From Armatimonadota bacterium (GTDB lineage Bacteria > Armatimonadota > Zipacnadia > Zipacnadales > UBA11051): DNA of 51,984 nt. The stretch spans positions 1 to 51,984 of the forward strand of contig JABLXH010000032.1 of assembly GCA_013178155.1 (NCBI GenBank), read 5' to 3'. Shown in pieces: positions 17,846 through 33,276 of the stretch. Each line of letters begins with the position of its first letter. Positions within the stretch are counted from its first letter, which is position 1. The notes beneath the pieces are model-generated. The model was not told the origin of the DNA, ran no database searches, and worked only from the letters and a program-made list of their open reading frames with translations. The translations under genes were made by a program, and so were the position numbers.

Positions 17846-20689
17846 TCAGCCCTCCGTCAGTGCTACGGCCACGGCATGTCTCAGGGCGGCGAAGTCCTCC
17901 GGTCTGAGCCGGTCGAAACGCAGGTTCCCGGCGTCTTCGGCCGACGCCTGGACCTGGCGGCCTGTCAGACCCAGCGTCTGAGCCACCAGCGCGGCGATCT
18001 GGTCACGGTCGTACCCGCGCTGCTGGCACAGCAGGTTCAGGTACTCCACGTCCTGCTGCCCACGGCAGAGCGCCAGCAGGCGCAGGCTTACCACCGGACC
18101 TGTCAACCCGAAACGGGTCCCCGGGATCAACAGCGCTGTCGGTGTGGGCTGCGTGTAGGCGGACTCGCCACCGATGACCTGCCAGGGCAGGATGCCGTCC
18201 GCGCCCCCGCAGTAGGCCTGCAGCGCCCACGCCACGCCGTTGAGATTGCTCGCAGCCACAGGATTTGCCTCGCCGTAGTGCCAGAGCCGGACCCCCTGGG
18301 CCCGGAAGGCGCGGCACTGCTCGGGGTGCTCGAAGAGCGCGCCGCTGACGCACATGACGTCAATGAGGCTATCCAGCCAGTCGCGCTGCAGATGTGGCCG
18401 TGAAATGTCACCTCGGTACTCGAAACAGGCTTGCTCGGGCAGCAAAGGCGAGCGGTAGGACAGGCCCTCGTGGAACAGCCGCGAGAAGAAGGCCAGGGCG
18501 AGCCAATCGTCCCGGTGGGATGGCTCATCCAGCAGCCACCAGGAGGTGCCGCGGAAGTCGGATTCCTCACTCTTATAGTAGTACTTGTTGTTCTGGTAGC
18601 ACTGCATGCTGGTCTGGTTCCATCCGCGGTCGTGGAAGTGCTCCACGAACTGCCGGGTGATGGTCCGGAAGGCCTCCTTATAGGCCTCATCGAAGGCCTG
18701 CTCGATGGGCGGGGCGGTCAGGGCGTGCAGGGCGATGTTATCGGGGTACTTGCGGAGGTCATTGCCGGCTGAGTAGTGCCCGGCCATGGGCGAGGGCCAG
18801 GCCTCGTGCAAGGGCAGGTACATGTGCGTGACCGGGATGCCGGCGCGGACGCCCGTGAAGGCGCTGCCATCGAGGTATGGCCCGAAGTGCTCATCCCATT
18901 CGCTCCAGTCCGCCACCCGCATGGCGGCCCCCTCGCCCTCGACGGGAGGCGCGTAGCCGCGGCTCATCCGCCCGGAGTGCGAATACCCCAGGGAGTTGAG
19001 CGTTCCTCGCAGCCGGTGGGCCCACGCGTAGTACTGCCGCTCCACTTGCAGGTACTCGGCCCAGTCATTCACGCTCTGGACTTCGCCATAGCAGTTGAGG
19101 TCCAGCTCGAAGGTGGTGTGGGGCGGGATGGTGAGAGGCAGTATCTCCAGCTCGAGAGGGAGTGTCAGCGTCGCGTCGGGTTCCCCGGCCGTGACGCGGA
19201 GACTGGCGCTCCTGGAGCCCGGCGTGGCGTCCAGCGGCACCTCCCACAGCAGCGTCAGACCCTGGTTCCGCTGCCCGGCCACGGCATTGTCCTCAGCGGG
19301 CAGCGACAGGGTGTCGCCCTCGCCCAGCGGCGCCAGGTACTCGGCGTACCACTGGCCGCCATCCCGCACATACCAGTTCCGGTATATGCCCAGGGGGGCG
19401 GGGAACGCTTCGGAGTCATTGGCCTCCAGACGGACGGCGACCTGGCGCGGCGTCGGCGTCTCGGATTCCACGATGACCTGCAGCGCGATGAGTTCGCCTC
19501 TGGCCGCTCGCACGAGGGCCCGCCCCCCATCCCAGACCGGATTCCCGCGCCGGTATTGCCCAGTGGGTTCACCCTCGTAGGCCTCCGCCCCCACTTCCTC
19601 CAGCACGTTCCCTGTAACCGGGCTGACCTTGCACTCGGCCGGGCAGGCCCAGACGCGGAGGCCCCCGGCGAGCACCGGCTCGGACCCCGAGGGCGCCACC
19701 GCCGTGATTCCCGGCAGCGGCTCGGGCCGCCGTTTGACAGAGGAGGAGCGTACGCTGACCGCCTGGGAGTTCGTGCGGCGACCGAACGCGTCTACGCCGC
19801 TGATGGTGATCTGGTAGTCGGCGTCAGGCCGCAGACCTGTGACTGGCACGGACTGTTCGCGGCCCGCCTCAACCGGTCTCGGCACCTGGTACAAGGGTAG
19901 CTGCAACTCCGCCTCCCCGACCGGACGGCAGGCGATGGCGTAACGGAAGGTGCCCGGCGAGTGCAGCCGCAGTCGCACCGCCCCGGTCTCAAAGCTGGCG
20001 CCGGCGGGCCACGGCTCAGCCACCACGGGACCCAGCTCCGGCAGCGGCCCCAACTCGCCCGCCGGGCCGCCCTCGACCTCCAGATAGGGCGCGAAGCTGG
20101 ACTGCTCGCGGGAGTGAACATCGTTGTTGTGCCGGGTCTGCCCCTTCTCATCGGAGACGCACAGCCCATGGCTGGCTCCGGACAACATGGCATGGATCAG
20201 CACCGGGTCTACTTCGACACTGAACCAGCCGTCCGCTCCGGGCTGAATGTCGGCATAGCGCACGATGGTGTTGCCCCCGGTGAGGGCCACGTCGAGAAAG
20301 TCGCTGCCCGGCCAGGCCCACAGGCCATCGGGCCAGTTGGCGCGGGTGAAGGTGCAGCCATCCTGCGCCGGCCCGCCGTCGCCGGTGCCTTCTGTCCAAT
20401 CCGCCGCCACGGTTGACAGCCCCAGGGTCCGCAGCATGTTCGGGTGGGAGTCATGCAGGTAGAGCCTCGCCCGCCGGACTTGCCAGCCGGTGATGGCTGC
20501 CAGGTCGAACTTCAGCAACAGGTAGTGCTCGTTGCCCTTGATACGGAGGTTTGCCACCGCACCGCTGTTACAGTTCACCTCCTCAGCGTAGGCCTGCAGC
20601 GAGGTGTCGGCGATGACGGGCAGACGGACGGCGTTGTTCTGGCCCATGAGGCCCGGGAAGAACAAGGCGGCCAGCGAGATGAGACCCAC
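17846..20689 (-). CDS. Secreted DNRLRE plus DUF4091 (GH123-like) protein
   Basis: The 947-residue protein has three parts. A DNRLRE-type beta-sandwich comes first (VIADTSLQAYAEEVNCNSG, NEHYLLLKFDL, VRRARLYLHD). Fibronectin-like or unassigned beta regions follow. The C-terminal TIM-barrel ends in a DUF4091 domain (WWLLDEPSHRDDW, GVRLWHYGEANP, GADGILPWQVIGG), related to GH123 enzymes. GTG 20689 is chosen because AGGAGG lies 10 bases upstream and the short leader VGLISLAALFFPGLMG begins there; the ATG at 20764 would add a Pro/Arg-rich stretch and overlap the divergent gene. It is transcribed before, and probably with, the GH9 gene. Confidence 0.82.
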   Translation of the reverse strand: MGLISLAALFFPGLMGQNNAVRLPVIADTSLQAYAEEVNCNSGAVANLRIKGNEHYLLLKFDLAAITGWQVRRARLYLHDSHPNMLRTLGLSTVAADWTEGTGDGGPAQDGCTFTRANWPDGLWAWPGSDFLDVALTGGNTIVRYADIQPGADGWFSVEVDPVLIHAMLSGASHGLCVSDEKGQTRHNNDVHSREQSSFAPYLEVEGGPAGELGPLPELGPVVAEPWPAGASFETGAVRLRLHSPGTFRYAIACRPVGEAELQLPLYQVPRPVEAGREQSVPVTGLRPDADYQITISGVDAFGRRTNSQAVSVRSSSVKRRPEPLPGITAVAPSGSEPVLAGGLRVWACPAECKVSPVTGNVLEEVGAEAYEGEPTGQYRRGNPVWDGGRALVRAARGELIALQVIVESETPTPRQVAVRLEANDSEAFPAPLGIYRNWYVRDGGQWYAEYLAPLGEGDTLSLPAEDNAVAGQRNQGLTLLWEVPLDATPGSRSASLRVTAGEPDATLTLPLELEILPLTIPPHTTFELDLNCYGEVQSVNDWAEYLQVERQYYAWAHRLRGTLNSLGYSHSGRMSRGYAPPVEGEGAAMRVADWSEWDEHFGPYLDGSAFTGVRAGIPVTHMYLPLHEAWPSPMAGHYSAGNDLRKYPDNIALHALTAPPIEQAFDEAYKEAFRTITRQFVEHFHDRGWNQTSMQCYQNNKYYYKSEESDFRGTSWWLLDEPSHRDDWLALAFFSRLFHEGLSYRSPLLPEQACFEYRGDISRPHLQRDWLDSLIDVMCVSGALFEHPEQCRAFRAQGVRLWHYGEANPVAASNLNGVAWALQAYCGGADGILPWQVIGGESAYTQPTPTALLIPGTRFGLTGPVVSLRLLALCRGQQDVEYLNLLCQQRGYDRDQIAALVAQTLGLTGRQVQASAEDAGNLRFDRLRPEDFAALRHAVAVALTEG

Positions 20690-29459: not shown

Positions 29460-30116
29460 TTACTTGAAGTTGTTTACCGCCTGGCGCGGCCAGAACTTGG
29501 CATGACCGTCGAGATACAGAATGTTCATGCCGCCCTTGACGTCGTGCACCGGCTGGTCGTTGAGCTTGCAGAACCAGTCACTGGCCAGCCAGTAGTCCGT
29601 GTCCCACTGCAGAGTCATAATCCGCGTCCGGTTGCCCCATCCCGTTGAGACCATAATGAACGAGCGGTCCACCCAACCCAGGTACCCATTGGAGGGACTG
29701 GACGGTGGAGCCGTGCTGGGCAGCCCGTCGAAGGACCAGTAGTAGTACCCGATGTAGCCGGCCTGGAAGTTCTCCGGGCTGGCGATCAGGTAGCTAACTC
29801 CGGTCTTCGGGTTGGACGGGCAGTAGAGAATCTGGCTGTTTTTCATGTACGGCATGACCTGGTTGATGAACCGGTAGTGCGGGTTGCACACATGGTCGTC
29901 TACCGGCAGTAACTCATCATAGTCCTGGGCGTACATGTGGCAGGCCAGACCGATCTGTCTCAGGTTGGAAAGACAGACCGTCTTCCGCGCAGCCTCTCGG
30001 GCCCGGGCGAACACTGGGAACAGGATAGCTGCGAGGATGGCGATGATGGCGATGACGACCAGTAGCTCGATGAGCGTGAAGCCACGGCGTCGGGGCAACC
30101 GTGTCAGCGATTTCAT
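29460..30116 (-). CDS. Type II/IV prepilin-like protein (H-X9-DG family)
   Basis: The 218-residue pseudopilin-like protein has a processing site [13 protein letters not shown] with the conserved Glu at +5 and a hydrophobic helix ([19 protein letters not shown]). Then come [28 protein letters not shown] and a C-terminal H-rich motif [19 protein letters not shown], a variant of H-X9-DG. ATG 30116 has GGAGGTGA upstream. Such proteins are numerous in Armatimonadota and Planctomycetes, and this N-terminus is close to the former. It lies 64 bases downstream of the ModA-like lipoprotein gene and may be co-transcribed with it. No pilus-assembly gene is in the window. Confidence 0.9.
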
Positions 30117-30180: not shown

Positions 30181-31047
30181 TTACTGCTGCACTCTCCCAT
30201 AGCCGCGCAGTGCCAGTGCTTCCTGCATGGTCGGCGTCTGCAGGAAGCTGATGAACTCCTCACTCAGCTCAGGGGATGGCGCCGACTTCAGTACCACCGC
30301 GACGACCACGAGCGGCCCGGCCTCGGTCTCGGGAACCGTCAGGACGGTGTCAACCTTCCCCTCCGCGCTGCGTACCGGATCGGCCGTTCCACCTCCTGGC
30401 CGCCGGGCCGCACTATAGACGAGAGCCGCGTCCGCCTTAGCAGCGGCGACCAGTCTCTTGGCTTCCAGGGGCTGGCTGACCCGGCGAAGCTTGCCGGCTT
30501 GTGTAAGCTTGTCTAGCACCCCAGCCTTGCTCAGTGCCTGCTCGGAGGCCTGCCCCAGGCTGGTCTCCGGCGTTGCCACGACCACCTCGCGTACCTCGTC
30601 TCGCGCCAGGTCAGCCAGCGACTTCAGGCCCCGGGGGTTACCACGGGGCACGATCAGCTCCATGCTGCGCGAGAAGATCGGGGTACCAGGGCCCTCGACC
30701 AGACCCGCATCCAGCAGCGGCTTCAGCTCCAGCTCGCCCTGTGCCAAGATGATGTCCAACACCAGCTTGCCGCTCTTCACGTCACGAACCAGCCCCTCCA
30801 CCTCCCGCTCGTGGAACTCCAGCTTGGTCTGAGGGTGGTCGGCGGCAAACCGGTCCTGCAGGTCCTTCAGCGCAACTTGCAGGCCGATGGGCAGACCGAT
30901 GGCCAGGATCGATGGACCCGCGGCGGAGCGGTCAGAAGGCAGGGGACCGGGCGAGGGCGCAACGTCAGCTTCCGGCCGAGGCGCACAACCTGCCACAGCG
31001 GAGATCAGGACACCTAACAGCAGTGCATTGGTAGCCTGTGACATCAT
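30181..31047 (-). CDS. ModA-like solute-binding lipoprotein
   Basis: The 288-residue extracytoplasmic binding protein resembles molybdate/tungstate ModA. A lipoprotein leader ([21 protein letters not shown], with the lipobox AVAGC) is followed by a Pro/Ser linker and a two-lobe domain with [18 protein letters not shown], a [13 protein letters not shown] lobe switch, [23 protein letters not shown] and [15 protein letters not shown]. The classic AAASL binding segment is replaced by LPIGLQ, so the ligand may differ from molybdate. ATG 31047 (with a tandem ATG) has GGAGAG upstream. No ModB or ModC gene is adjacent. Two inverted repeats lie 66-118 bp upstream. Confidence 0.78.
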
Positions 31048-31112
31048 TCCGCTCTCCCTCCCCCATGTCTGCACCGATGCCTTGGAGTTGCGCGTCGCCT
31101 GTGATTGTAGTC

Positions 31113-31133
31113 CTATATGCTAAGTGCATATAG
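31113..31133. promoter_or_regulatory. Palindromic operator-like site upstream of the ModA-like gene
   Basis: CTATATGC-taagt-GCATATAG is a perfect 8-bp inverted repeat with a 5-base spacer. The TATA-rich dyad resembles the architecture of ModE-type operators, and it lies 66-86 bp upstream of a ModA-like gene. An alternative nested dyad TGCTA-N8-TAGCA overlaps it at 31118-31135. Regulation by ModE is inference; no regulator gene is in the window. Confidence 0.55.
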
Positions 31134-31144
31134 CACAAAATGAG

Positions 31145-31165
31145 CAAGGAAGCAGTAATTCCTTG
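31145..31165. promoter_or_regulatory. Second operator-like inverted repeat
   Basis: CAAGGAA-gcagtaa-TTCCTTG is a perfect 7-bp dyad with a 7-base spacer, about 11 bp from the first. The two dyads are about 32 bp apart centre to centre, that is about three helical turns, so they could be bound by the same or cooperating proteins. Confidence 0.45.
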
Positions 31166-31181
31166 TTTAGCTCTATGCTAT

Positions 31182-31214
31182 GACTGACGCCCAACTGCAG
31201 CGCAGCCGTCAGTC
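31182..31214 (+). promoter_or_regulatory. Inverted repeat in the leader of the PA14-GH gene
   Basis: GACTGACG and CGTCAGTC form a perfect 8-bp stem around a 17-base loop that itself contains CTGCAG. It lies about 170 bp before the plus-strand start at 31387 and could fold in that gene's untranslated leader or serve as an operator. No known riboswitch fold is recognised. Confidence 0.4.
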
Positions 31215-31386
31215 GCAGGATGTCGCCCCACTGGCAGCGAACCTCCAGACGCCGGGCCGTGTCCGCCCGTGTGTCGGTGGTTTGCGGTGCGCGCGCGGCC
31301 ACAGTCTGGACTCATGTCCGAAAAACCCCAAACGCCCGCGGTGTGCTGGGCCAGCCACTCACCCGACGGGATGGACGAGGAAGAGC

Positions 31387-33276
31387 ATGAGACGCCGAAG
31401 CCTGATGCCAGGCCTAGGTTTGGCTCTGGGGCTGGGACTGGGAACTGTCCGGGCCGAGACGATCCGCCCGGGCCTGGCGTGGGTGCGGTACCACGACACG
31501 GCCTTCCAGCGCCCGGCGCTGACCGGCACCGACCCGCTGGTCAACCTCGCGCTGACGGGCTACAACGACTGCTCCCAGGTGTGGCGGGGGCGCATCCGCT
31601 TCCCGGTGGCCGGCTCTGTCACGTTGGCGTTGGAGGCTCAGCAAGGAGTGCGGCTGTACATTGGAGACCAGTTGGTCATTGATGGCTGGTCGCCGGAGGG
31701 GGCGCGGGGAGGGAGCTGTAACGTGCGTGCACGGCAGGCACTGCCCTTCCGACTGGAGTACTACCATCTGGGTGGCGAGGCCTATTGCCGACTCTACTGG
31801 CAGTGGGAGGGCCACGCGCGGGAGCTTGTCCCGCCCAGCGCCTTCAGCCACACGGAGACGGACACAAGCCCGTTGACGACCAGCATCTCGGCGCCTACAG
31901 GAGACGAACCCATGTGCAGCAGCATCTACAAGCCGAGAACACCGGCTCGGACCGGGTCTGTCCGGCTGCGGCTGGGGCCCGGCCCGCACCTGTTTGTGGA
32001 CGATGCCTTGATCGCGGAGAGCACGGGCGTCACGCGCCGCGTCAACTGCCCCCAGCGCGACCCAGCCCTGCCCAACCCGATCGTGACCGGCAAGGGGGAC
32101 CGCTGCTTCCAGCCGTACATGACCGTCCTGCGCGACCCCGAGACCGGGAGGTTCCGCCTGTGGTACGGCATCTACGGCCCCAACCCCGATGCAGTCACCT
32201 CCCATGTGGGCTACATGGAGTCCGATGACGGCATCCACTGGGAGCGGCCCTTCCGCCAGTTGGCCGACCCCGGCGCCATCCAGTTCGGCGTCAGTGTCGT
32301 GGATGACGGACCTGACACACCCGACCCGGCGCGGCGCTATAAGCTGGCCTGGTGGAAGGATGGGGGCCTGAAGATTGCCACCTCGCGCGACGGCCTCGAG
32401 TGGCGAGCCCTCGTGCCCCAGCCGGTCCTGCTGCATAACCATGACATCAACAACCTGTGGTGGGACGCCCCGCGCGGACGTTACGTGGCAACCATCTCGG
32501 TCTACACCACCGGGCCGACATGGACCGGCGACCGCCGCGTAACGTTGCACAGCAGCAGCACCGACCTGCTGCACTGGGAGAAGCCCTGGTACGTCCTGAC
32601 TCCGGTAGACGGTGATGACCAGGGCGAGACGCAGTTCTACGCCATGTGCGGCTACATCCAGCGCGGCGACCTGTGGCTTGGCATGGTGAAGGTCTTGCGG
32701 GATGACCTGGTGGCAGAGGGCACGCCCGAGGGCTCCTACGGTATCGGCTATACCACGCTGGCCTGGAGTCGTGATGGGCGCCACTGGGTGCGTGACCAGG
32801 AGCCTTTCTTCGAGCCTGACCCGACCCCTGGCGCCTGGGACCATGCCCATGCCTGGATAGACTGCCAGTTGCCGGTGGGTGACGAGGTCTATCTGTACTA
32901 CGGGGGGTACAGGAACGGCCACAAGGTGAACCGCTACGAGGAGCGTCAGATTGGCCTGCTGCGCATGCCCCGCGACCGGTACGTGGCGCGTGCCGCCGGA
33001 GCGGAAGGTGGCACGTTGCGCACGCCGCCGGCGGTGCTGGAAGGGAGCAGGCTCACGGTCAACGCCGACGTGCGCGGTGAGCTGCGGGTAGCCGTCCTGG
33101 GTCCCTCCGGCGAACCCCTCCCCGGCTTCCGATTCGCTGACTGCCACCCGGTGCACGGTGACAGTCTTGCTCACCGTGTGCGGTGGGAGGGCCTGCCGAC
33201 TCTTCCGCGGGGCCAGGAGGTGCAACTGGAGTTCCAGTGGCGGGATGGCGAGTTGTTCGGGTTCGACCTGCAGTAG
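31387..33276 (+). CDS. Secreted PA14 plus GH43/GH32-like five-bladed propeller protein
   Basis: The 629-residue exported protein has a signal peptide (MRRRSLMPGLGLALGLGLGTVRA). Residues 25-160 form a PA14-like beta-sandwich, with the sugar-type pattern RLYIGDQLVIDGWSPEG and FRLEYYHLGGEAYCRLYW. A glycosidase-type five-bladed propeller follows, with LGPGPHLFVDDALIAES, GRFRLWYGIYG, YMESDDGIHWERP, ATSRDGLEWR and LAWSRDGRHWVRDQEPF repeats. ATG 31387 has GGAAGAG upstream. It leads the plus-strand block of DUF6259, sulfatase, URO-D and sugar-transporter genes. Substrate unknown. Confidence 0.78.
   Translation: MRRRSLMPGLGLALGLGLGTVRAETIRPGLAWVRYHDTAFQRPALTGTDPLVNLALTGYNDCSQVWRGRIRFPVAGSVTLALEAQQGVRLYIGDQLVIDGWSPEGARGGSCNVRARQALPFRLEYYHLGGEAYCRLYWQWEGHARELVPPSAFSHTETDTSPLTTSISAPTGDEPMCSSIYKPRTPARTGSVRLRLGPGPHLFVDDALIAESTGVTRRVNCPQRDPALPNPIVTGKGDRCFQPYMTVLRDPETGRFRLWYGIYGPNPDAVTSHVGYMESDDGIHWERPFRQLADPGAIQFGVSVVDDGPDTPDPARRYKLAWWKDGGLKIATSRDGLEWRALVPQPVLLHNHDINNLWWDAPRGRYVATISVYTTGPTWTGDRRVTLHSSSTDLLHWEKPWYVLTPVDGDDQGETQFYAMCGYIQRGDLWLGMVKVLRDDLVAEGTPEGSYGIGYTTLAWSRDGRHWVRDQEPFFEPDPTPGAWDHAHAWIDCQLPVGDEVYLYYGGYRNGHKVNRYEERQIGLLRMPRDRYVARAAGAEGGTLRTPPAVLEGSRLTVNADVRGELRVAVLGPSGEPLPGFRFADCHPVHGDSLAHRVRWEGLPTLPRGQEVQLEFQWRDGELFGFDLQ

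Follow-up and report, generated by a model that had tools for sequence, protein, structure and literature searches.

The first of two palindromes upstream of a ModA-like gene in the window, that is, in the whole 51,984-nucleotide stretch of DNA that was analyzed, is very probably a genuine operator. Judged from sequence comparison, this palindrome (dyad 1; Table 1) can be assigned with good confidence to a PadR-family regulator that is conserved across the bacterial class, as its 21-bp operator, and the regulon in this genome would include solitary ModA-like lipoproteins. The recurrence of the site, its place before binding-protein genes, and its conservation together with padR across the class were computed directly. 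Because near-identical sites precede padR in most of the relatives tested, dyad 1 would very probably be a docking site of PadR.

Palindromes and genes of the window

Two perfect dyads about 32 bp apart had been described as a pair in the only AT-rich stretch of the window. Both are found in the sequence where they had been placed, their starts being separated by 32 bp. Dyad 1 has the perfect layout CTATATGC-N5-GCATATAG and contains the motif CTATATG-N7-CATATAG. The GC content of positions 31101-31180 is 37.5% versus 66.6% for the whole window, and the 60-bp stretch from 31128 is, at 63% AT, indeed the most AT-rich; to call it the only one overstates slightly, the runner-up at 18564 reaching 55%. 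Neither palindrome is remarkable as a dyad, because the window is rich in perfect dyads of this kind: 80 were counted (arms of at least 7, loops of 3-12) versus 46-86 in 12 Markov simulations, so that palindromes as such cannot carry an argument.

Table 1. Features around dyad 1 in the window, and the exact copies of its core motif in the genome.
Feature	Position	Strand	Remarks
Operator dyad 1, CTATATGC-TAAGT-GCATATAG	31113..31133	.	21 bp, exact; predicted PadR-family binding site
TACAAT, -10-like hexamer	31104..31109	-	Read in the sequence; 3 bp from dyad 1
Dyad 2, CAAGGAA-GCAGTAA-TTCCTTG	31145..31165	.	Layout CAAGGAA-N7-TTCCTTG, perfect
SBP_bac_11 (ModA-like) solute-binding lipoprotein gene	30181..31047	-	PF13531, E 3e-30; likely target
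Pseudopilin-like DUF1559 gene	29460..30116	-	N_methyl and PF07596; start ATG 30116; downstream of the binding-protein gene
PA14-domain protein gene, divergent	31387..33276	+	PF07691, 5e-11; start about 250 bp from dyad 1
Exact copy 1	C138:31113 (window)		Before the SBP_bac_11 gene of the window
Exact copy 2	C110:82		Upstream of an SBP_bac_11 paralogue that shares 41% identity with the window gene
Exact copy 3	C72:1528		Flanked by a divergent SBP_bac_11 gene on one side and by arsR-ArsP-thioredoxin genes on the other

A weight matrix was built from 25 padR-promoter sites of relatives, which themselves score 20.5-38.8. On this scale dyad 1 reaches 32.3, the next non-overlapping position of the window 0.05, and dyad 2 -28.0. 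No second copy of dyad 2 was found genome-wide with 2 or fewer mismatches, its reversed control pattern giving 3 matches; the dyad is unique and lies within control expectation. With dyad 2 unsupported, the idea of paired palindromes fails, and dyad 2 is unrelated to dyad 1 and not part of the operator. Dyad 2 gives a terminator-like match; it is probably due to chance, the preferred reading, or else forms a weak minus-strand hairpin of the terminator type. Adjoining both dyads, a third inverted repeat, GACTGACG...CGTCAGTC, lies at 31182-31214. The fold of the 151-nt region is somewhat better than that of shuffled sequences (z -3.6 and -2.8), and an Rfam search of the same region returned no family at its gathering score; an RNA structure was rejected as a candidate, the fold being accounted for by the two dyads and the third inverted repeat.

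The binding-protein gene starts with ATG at 31047, 66 bp from dyad 1, a GTG start at 31074 being also possible, and its product has a lipobox-like AVAGC, read by eye. The label "ModA-like" given to this gene in the original prediction is fair, because the gene matches PF13531 and the score of 48.6 bits with the NCBIfam modA model (TIGR01256) is below the cut-off of 62.5. The hexamer TACAAT, likewise noted before, is present beside dyad 1 (read from 31109 to 31104) and may be part of the promoter of this gene, though it is a weak candidate without a good -35 element; a scan of 30950-31450 for sigma-70-type promoters returned nothing at threshold. The pseudopilin-like gene is possibly cotranscribed with the binding-protein gene. 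The PA14-domain gene would at best be a possible second target. In alignment A3, several binding-protein paralogues carry PCG or SCG close to ligand loop 1, where the window protein has PIG; the cysteine of these paralogues could point to a thiophilic ligand.

Recurrence of the site in the genome and in the class

The genome that was searched comprises 5.53 Mb in 211 contigs and is 95.6% complete. CTATATG-N7-CATATAG is present in three exact copies; no copy has 1-2 mismatches and 19 copies have 3, and the pattern reversed as a control gives 23 matches at up to 3 mismatches. It is this recurrence that makes dyad 1 remarkable, since about 0.001 exact copies (0.0005-0.001) would be expected by chance. 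All three copies are located upstream of SBP_bac_11 (ModA-like) genes and score 29.8-33.8 with the weight matrix; the paralogue on C110 reaches 69.6 with the modA model, above the cut-off of 62.5. The regulatory role proposed for dyad 1 is supported by this repetition before ModA-like genes. Two side observations concern weaker matches. A dyad-like site with a score of 15.2 is found on C110 (L010:187-207), 105 bp downstream of the exact copy and before the same binding-protein gene, and one of the 3-mismatch sites, on C2, falls inside a long ORF that is dnaA-like by eye.

The genome contains a single match to PF03551 (E 9.2e-16), at C90:19912-20136, which stands apart from the three exact sites on other contigs. 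The encoded PadR is 69-74% identical to the PadR proteins of four relatives (G011, G013, G023, and G028), and in two of these (G013 and G028) padR has an exact site. With this PadR as query, homologues were found in 36 of the 46 class genomes. Thirty padR loci were returned, for each of which the best dyad match within 200 bp upstream was taken: 12 loci have 0 mismatches, seven have 1, six have 2, two have 3, and one each has 4 (the own genome), 6, and 7. Matches with at most 2 mismatches thus precede padR at 25/30 loci; control windows from the padR loci gave 9/308 at this threshold, at least some of these being second sites that flank padR. In many padR promoters, inspection by eye shows TTGAC(A/T) some 17 nt ahead of TATATG. 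The left dyad half would then be the likely -10 element, which is the pattern of an autorepressor. Sites in padR's own promoter are found in the class; in the own genome, this promoter contains a degenerate site, with 4 mismatches and a score of 20.6.

Searched across the phylum, the exact pattern occurs in 15/291 genomes, 13 of which belong to the class (n = 46), and the reversed control in 2/291. Other genomes of the class contain 12 such sites. At each of them a PadR gene is present by homology, PF03551 being found in the 3 proteins scanned, and this gene is often followed by genes for PF02579 proteins and a metallo-beta-lactamase-fold protein. The two exact sites outside the class (G047 and G106; L032 and L033) have no ArsR, ArsP, or SBP homologue within 1.5 kb, PadR is not seen in the ORF listing of either locus, and they are taken as chance occurrences. 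Among the 46 class genomes, 32 have both PadR and site, nine have neither, four have PadR only, and one has the site only (Fisher 5.9e-6, from counts made by hand and uncorrected for relatedness).

The relaxed pattern TATATGYN5RCATATA with at most 1 mismatch is found in 33/46 class genomes, with 56 sites by own tally versus 3 for the reversed control, and the dyad is located upstream of NifX/ORP-type (PF02579) genes, too. Of 55 distinct class sites at the loci examined, 46 have within 900 bp a gene that points away from them and belongs to the PadR, PF02579, ORP-cluster, or SBP group, a figure without background rate and for families chosen after the contexts had been inspected. The nearest gene of these families encodes PadR at 27 sites, a PF02579 protein at 9, a glycine-rich cluster protein at 6, and an SBP at 4, none being found at 9; the 55 sites include overlapping or tandem pairs and leave out G047, G106, the 10-base L052, and the duplicates L136-L142. 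Tandem overlapping operator copies 15 bp apart were observed before padR in G044 (L092) and before a PF02579 operon in G043 (L121).

The four SBP cases are the three sites of the own genome and one on contig C482 of G044 (L124), where a 1-mismatch site is followed by a pseudopilin-like gene and then by the gene for a binding protein orthologous to that of C72 (phmmer 4e-93). Pseudopilin-like genes are thus near site and binding-protein gene in both the window and L124, in different order. The original prediction had named, as findings that would speak against it, a lack of other copies in the genome and a lack of conservation in relatives with the same gene. Other copies exist; but at the six loci of relatives with homologues of the window binding protein (L024-L029), no site is present within 3 mismatches, and for this reason the link between site and binding protein rests on the three copies in one genome and the weaker case of G044.

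The PadR proteins of one subtype carry an N-terminal cysteine motif, C-x2-H-x6-C-S-C, which is invariant in 9/9 sequences of alignment A2, including the own PadR, and is missing from several further PadRs of the class that share the operator. The motif could bind a metal or a cluster. A scan of named genomes with the alignment of cysteine-type PadRs gave seven loci, of which two are from Candidatus Zipacnadia bacterium, one from Candidatus Zipacnadum vermilionense (71% identity), two from Armatimonadota bacterium, one from Armatimonadia bacterium, and one from an uncultured bacterium. The window would accordingly come from Candidatus Zipacnadia (Armatimonadota), the class to which the counts above refer.

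Candidate regulators of the site

The TATAT/ATATA halves upstream of a ModA-like gene had suggested a ModE operator and oxyanion-responsive control, with ModE implying a response to molybdate, and in these halves dyad 1 does resemble the E. coli type of operator, for which the consensus ATCGnTATATA-N6-TATATAnCGAT is given (PMC545781). Beyond the halves the likeness ends: dyad 1 reads TATAT-N9-ATATA and is devoid of CG arms, whereas the consensus has N8 between TATAT and ATATA and is flanked by such arms. A search of the genome with TIGR00637 gave no match at E up to 0.01, 11/14 control genomes being positive, and no site within 3 mismatches is present in the Mo/W-type transporter cluster at C139:26000-38000. 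Besides modA-type binding proteins, this cluster encodes a molybdate-type permease that passes its cut-off (TIGR01581) and a WtpC-like ATPase that falls short of its own. Of the proposed search for further dyads near mod/wtp genes or a ModE homologue, the outcome is therefore mixed, with three exact copies before ModA-like genes on the one hand, and neither a ModE homologue nor a site at the Mo/W-type cluster on the other; a ModE operator is extremely improbable. The same region (L011) was seen to encode an ArsP-type permease as well as several modA-type proteins, including one 549-aa gene with two modA stretches. Equally improbable for dyad 1 is that an AT-rich spacer contains a palindrome or hairpin by chance. 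The frequency of perfect dyads of this size in the window would speak for this reading, which is countered by the recurrence before three binding-protein genes and by the class-wide conservation at padR.

Because one of the three exact sites also faces arsR, a rival regulator is left. The ArsR-family repressor from C72 might bind all three sites as its operators and act as a metal(loid) switch over binding proteins and the ArsP permease. Its gene lies about 230 bp from the exact copy, shares the HTH_5 domain with just one other gene of the genome, and scores above the cut-off for ArsR/SmtB metalloregulators, and the arsenic/thiol theme of the operon is compatible with oxyanion-binding proteins. 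In the copy facing arsR-ArsP, the arrangement is like that of ArsR/SmtB-metalloregulated ars operons; unlike there, the class-wide partner of the dyad is padR. The ArsR reading was demoted because the sites of relatives turned out to be at padR: all 12 class loci with an exact dyad carry this gene, and an ArsR, ArsP, or SBP homologue is found at none of them (up to 1.5 kb on each side), so that arsR adjoins 1/3 own copies and 0/12 of the relatives' loci. Moreover, presence of PadR and site covary across the class, and the arsR start adjoins a separate promoter-like TTGCAA-N17-TATACT. An ArsR operator is, hence, unlikely, if the least unlikely of the rivals. A further candidate is some other regulator using the motif of PadR; in its favor, the three binding-protein sites are exact and the site at the own padR is degenerate. 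Against it stands that the single PadR of the genome is close kin of PadRs whose genes have the exact site, and little probability is given to it.

Some further features were observed at the loci of the two ArsR-family genes. The operon on C72 (L009) has the order arsR-ArsP-thioredoxin-P5CR-like-(thioredoxin + MerB-like)-DGC-thioredoxin-DsbD, and the product of the divergent SBP_bac_11 gene has a long C-terminal tail. On C4 (L031:1756-1776), a dyad TCGTATTTCGGCGAAATACGA, also of 8-5-8 layout, is found just past the ORF of the second ArsR-family gene, the only one found in the genome besides that on C72.

Predicted mode of action and relation to known systems

For the preferred PadR operator, the following scenario can be drawn. 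In the relatives, PadR would probably repress its own gene, since at many padR promoters the site overlaps the -10 region or comes directly after it, and would also control NifX/ORP-type (PF02579), Mrp/MinD-type, and metallo-beta-lactamase-fold genes, with the site recurring before PF02579 operons. In the present genome, the PadR encoded on C90 would act at three remote sites, namely at the window gene, the C110 paralogue, and the binding-protein gene on C72. PadR bound at the dyad would occlude the promoter and thereby repress transcription, and a metal, metalloid, or redox signal would lead to its release. The targets, modA-type proteins here and PF02579 proteins in relatives, would be compatible with a metal or oxyanion signal. 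It is a tentative and rather doubtful extension that the PadR subtype with the cysteine motif senses a metal, a metalloid, or sulfide-bound metal and couples ModA-like oxyanion capture with NifX/ORP metal-sulfur cofactor assembly, the regulon of this lineage having been rewired away from cofactor genes and toward genes for binding proteins.

The described sites of the PadR family are inverted repeats of the type ATGT/ACAT (PMC3506622) with a usual spacing of 8-10 nt, cdPadR1 with TACT-N11-12-AGTA being an exception (PMC3506622, PMC5050560). As described there, the operators of LmrR, bcPadR, and cdPadR1 are like dyad 1 and its family in being AT-rich inverted repeats in the regulator's promoter that overlap promoter elements, and in having halves of the ATGT/ACAT type. 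In the site set, the fourth position of ATGY...RCAT is T in 17/25 and C in 8/25, the window site having ATGC/GCAT. Different from those operators are the half-site spacing, which is 5 in the class sites (ATGY-N5-RCAT) and not 8-10 nt, the near-perfect palindrome of 21 bp, and the targets, which are PF02579/ORP-type operons among the relatives but solute-binding lipoproteins in this genome. The iron-sulfur gene clusters of ORP and MrpORP have been dealt with in Desulfovibrio (PMC6345978), where dinitrogenase-cofactor (PF02579) proteins and Mrp-type ATPases are found together as beside the relatives' sites; unlike here, PadR is not mentioned in the abstract of that report. Among the titles and abstract openings retrieved for PadR with orange protein, NifX, dinitrogenase cofactor, molybdenum, or Armatimonadota, none describes such a regulon, and neither PadR nor molybd occurs in the main text of the class description (PMC10290634).

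By this assignment, an uncultured bacterial class would gain a regulator with a precisely defined binding motif and a small regulon. It also provides a lead that PF02579/ORP-type metal-sulfur proteins and ModA-like proteins, the roles of which are poorly known, may share one signal. Finally, the case illustrates that a palindrome upstream of a ModA-like gene can look like a ModE site and yet serve an entirely different regulator.
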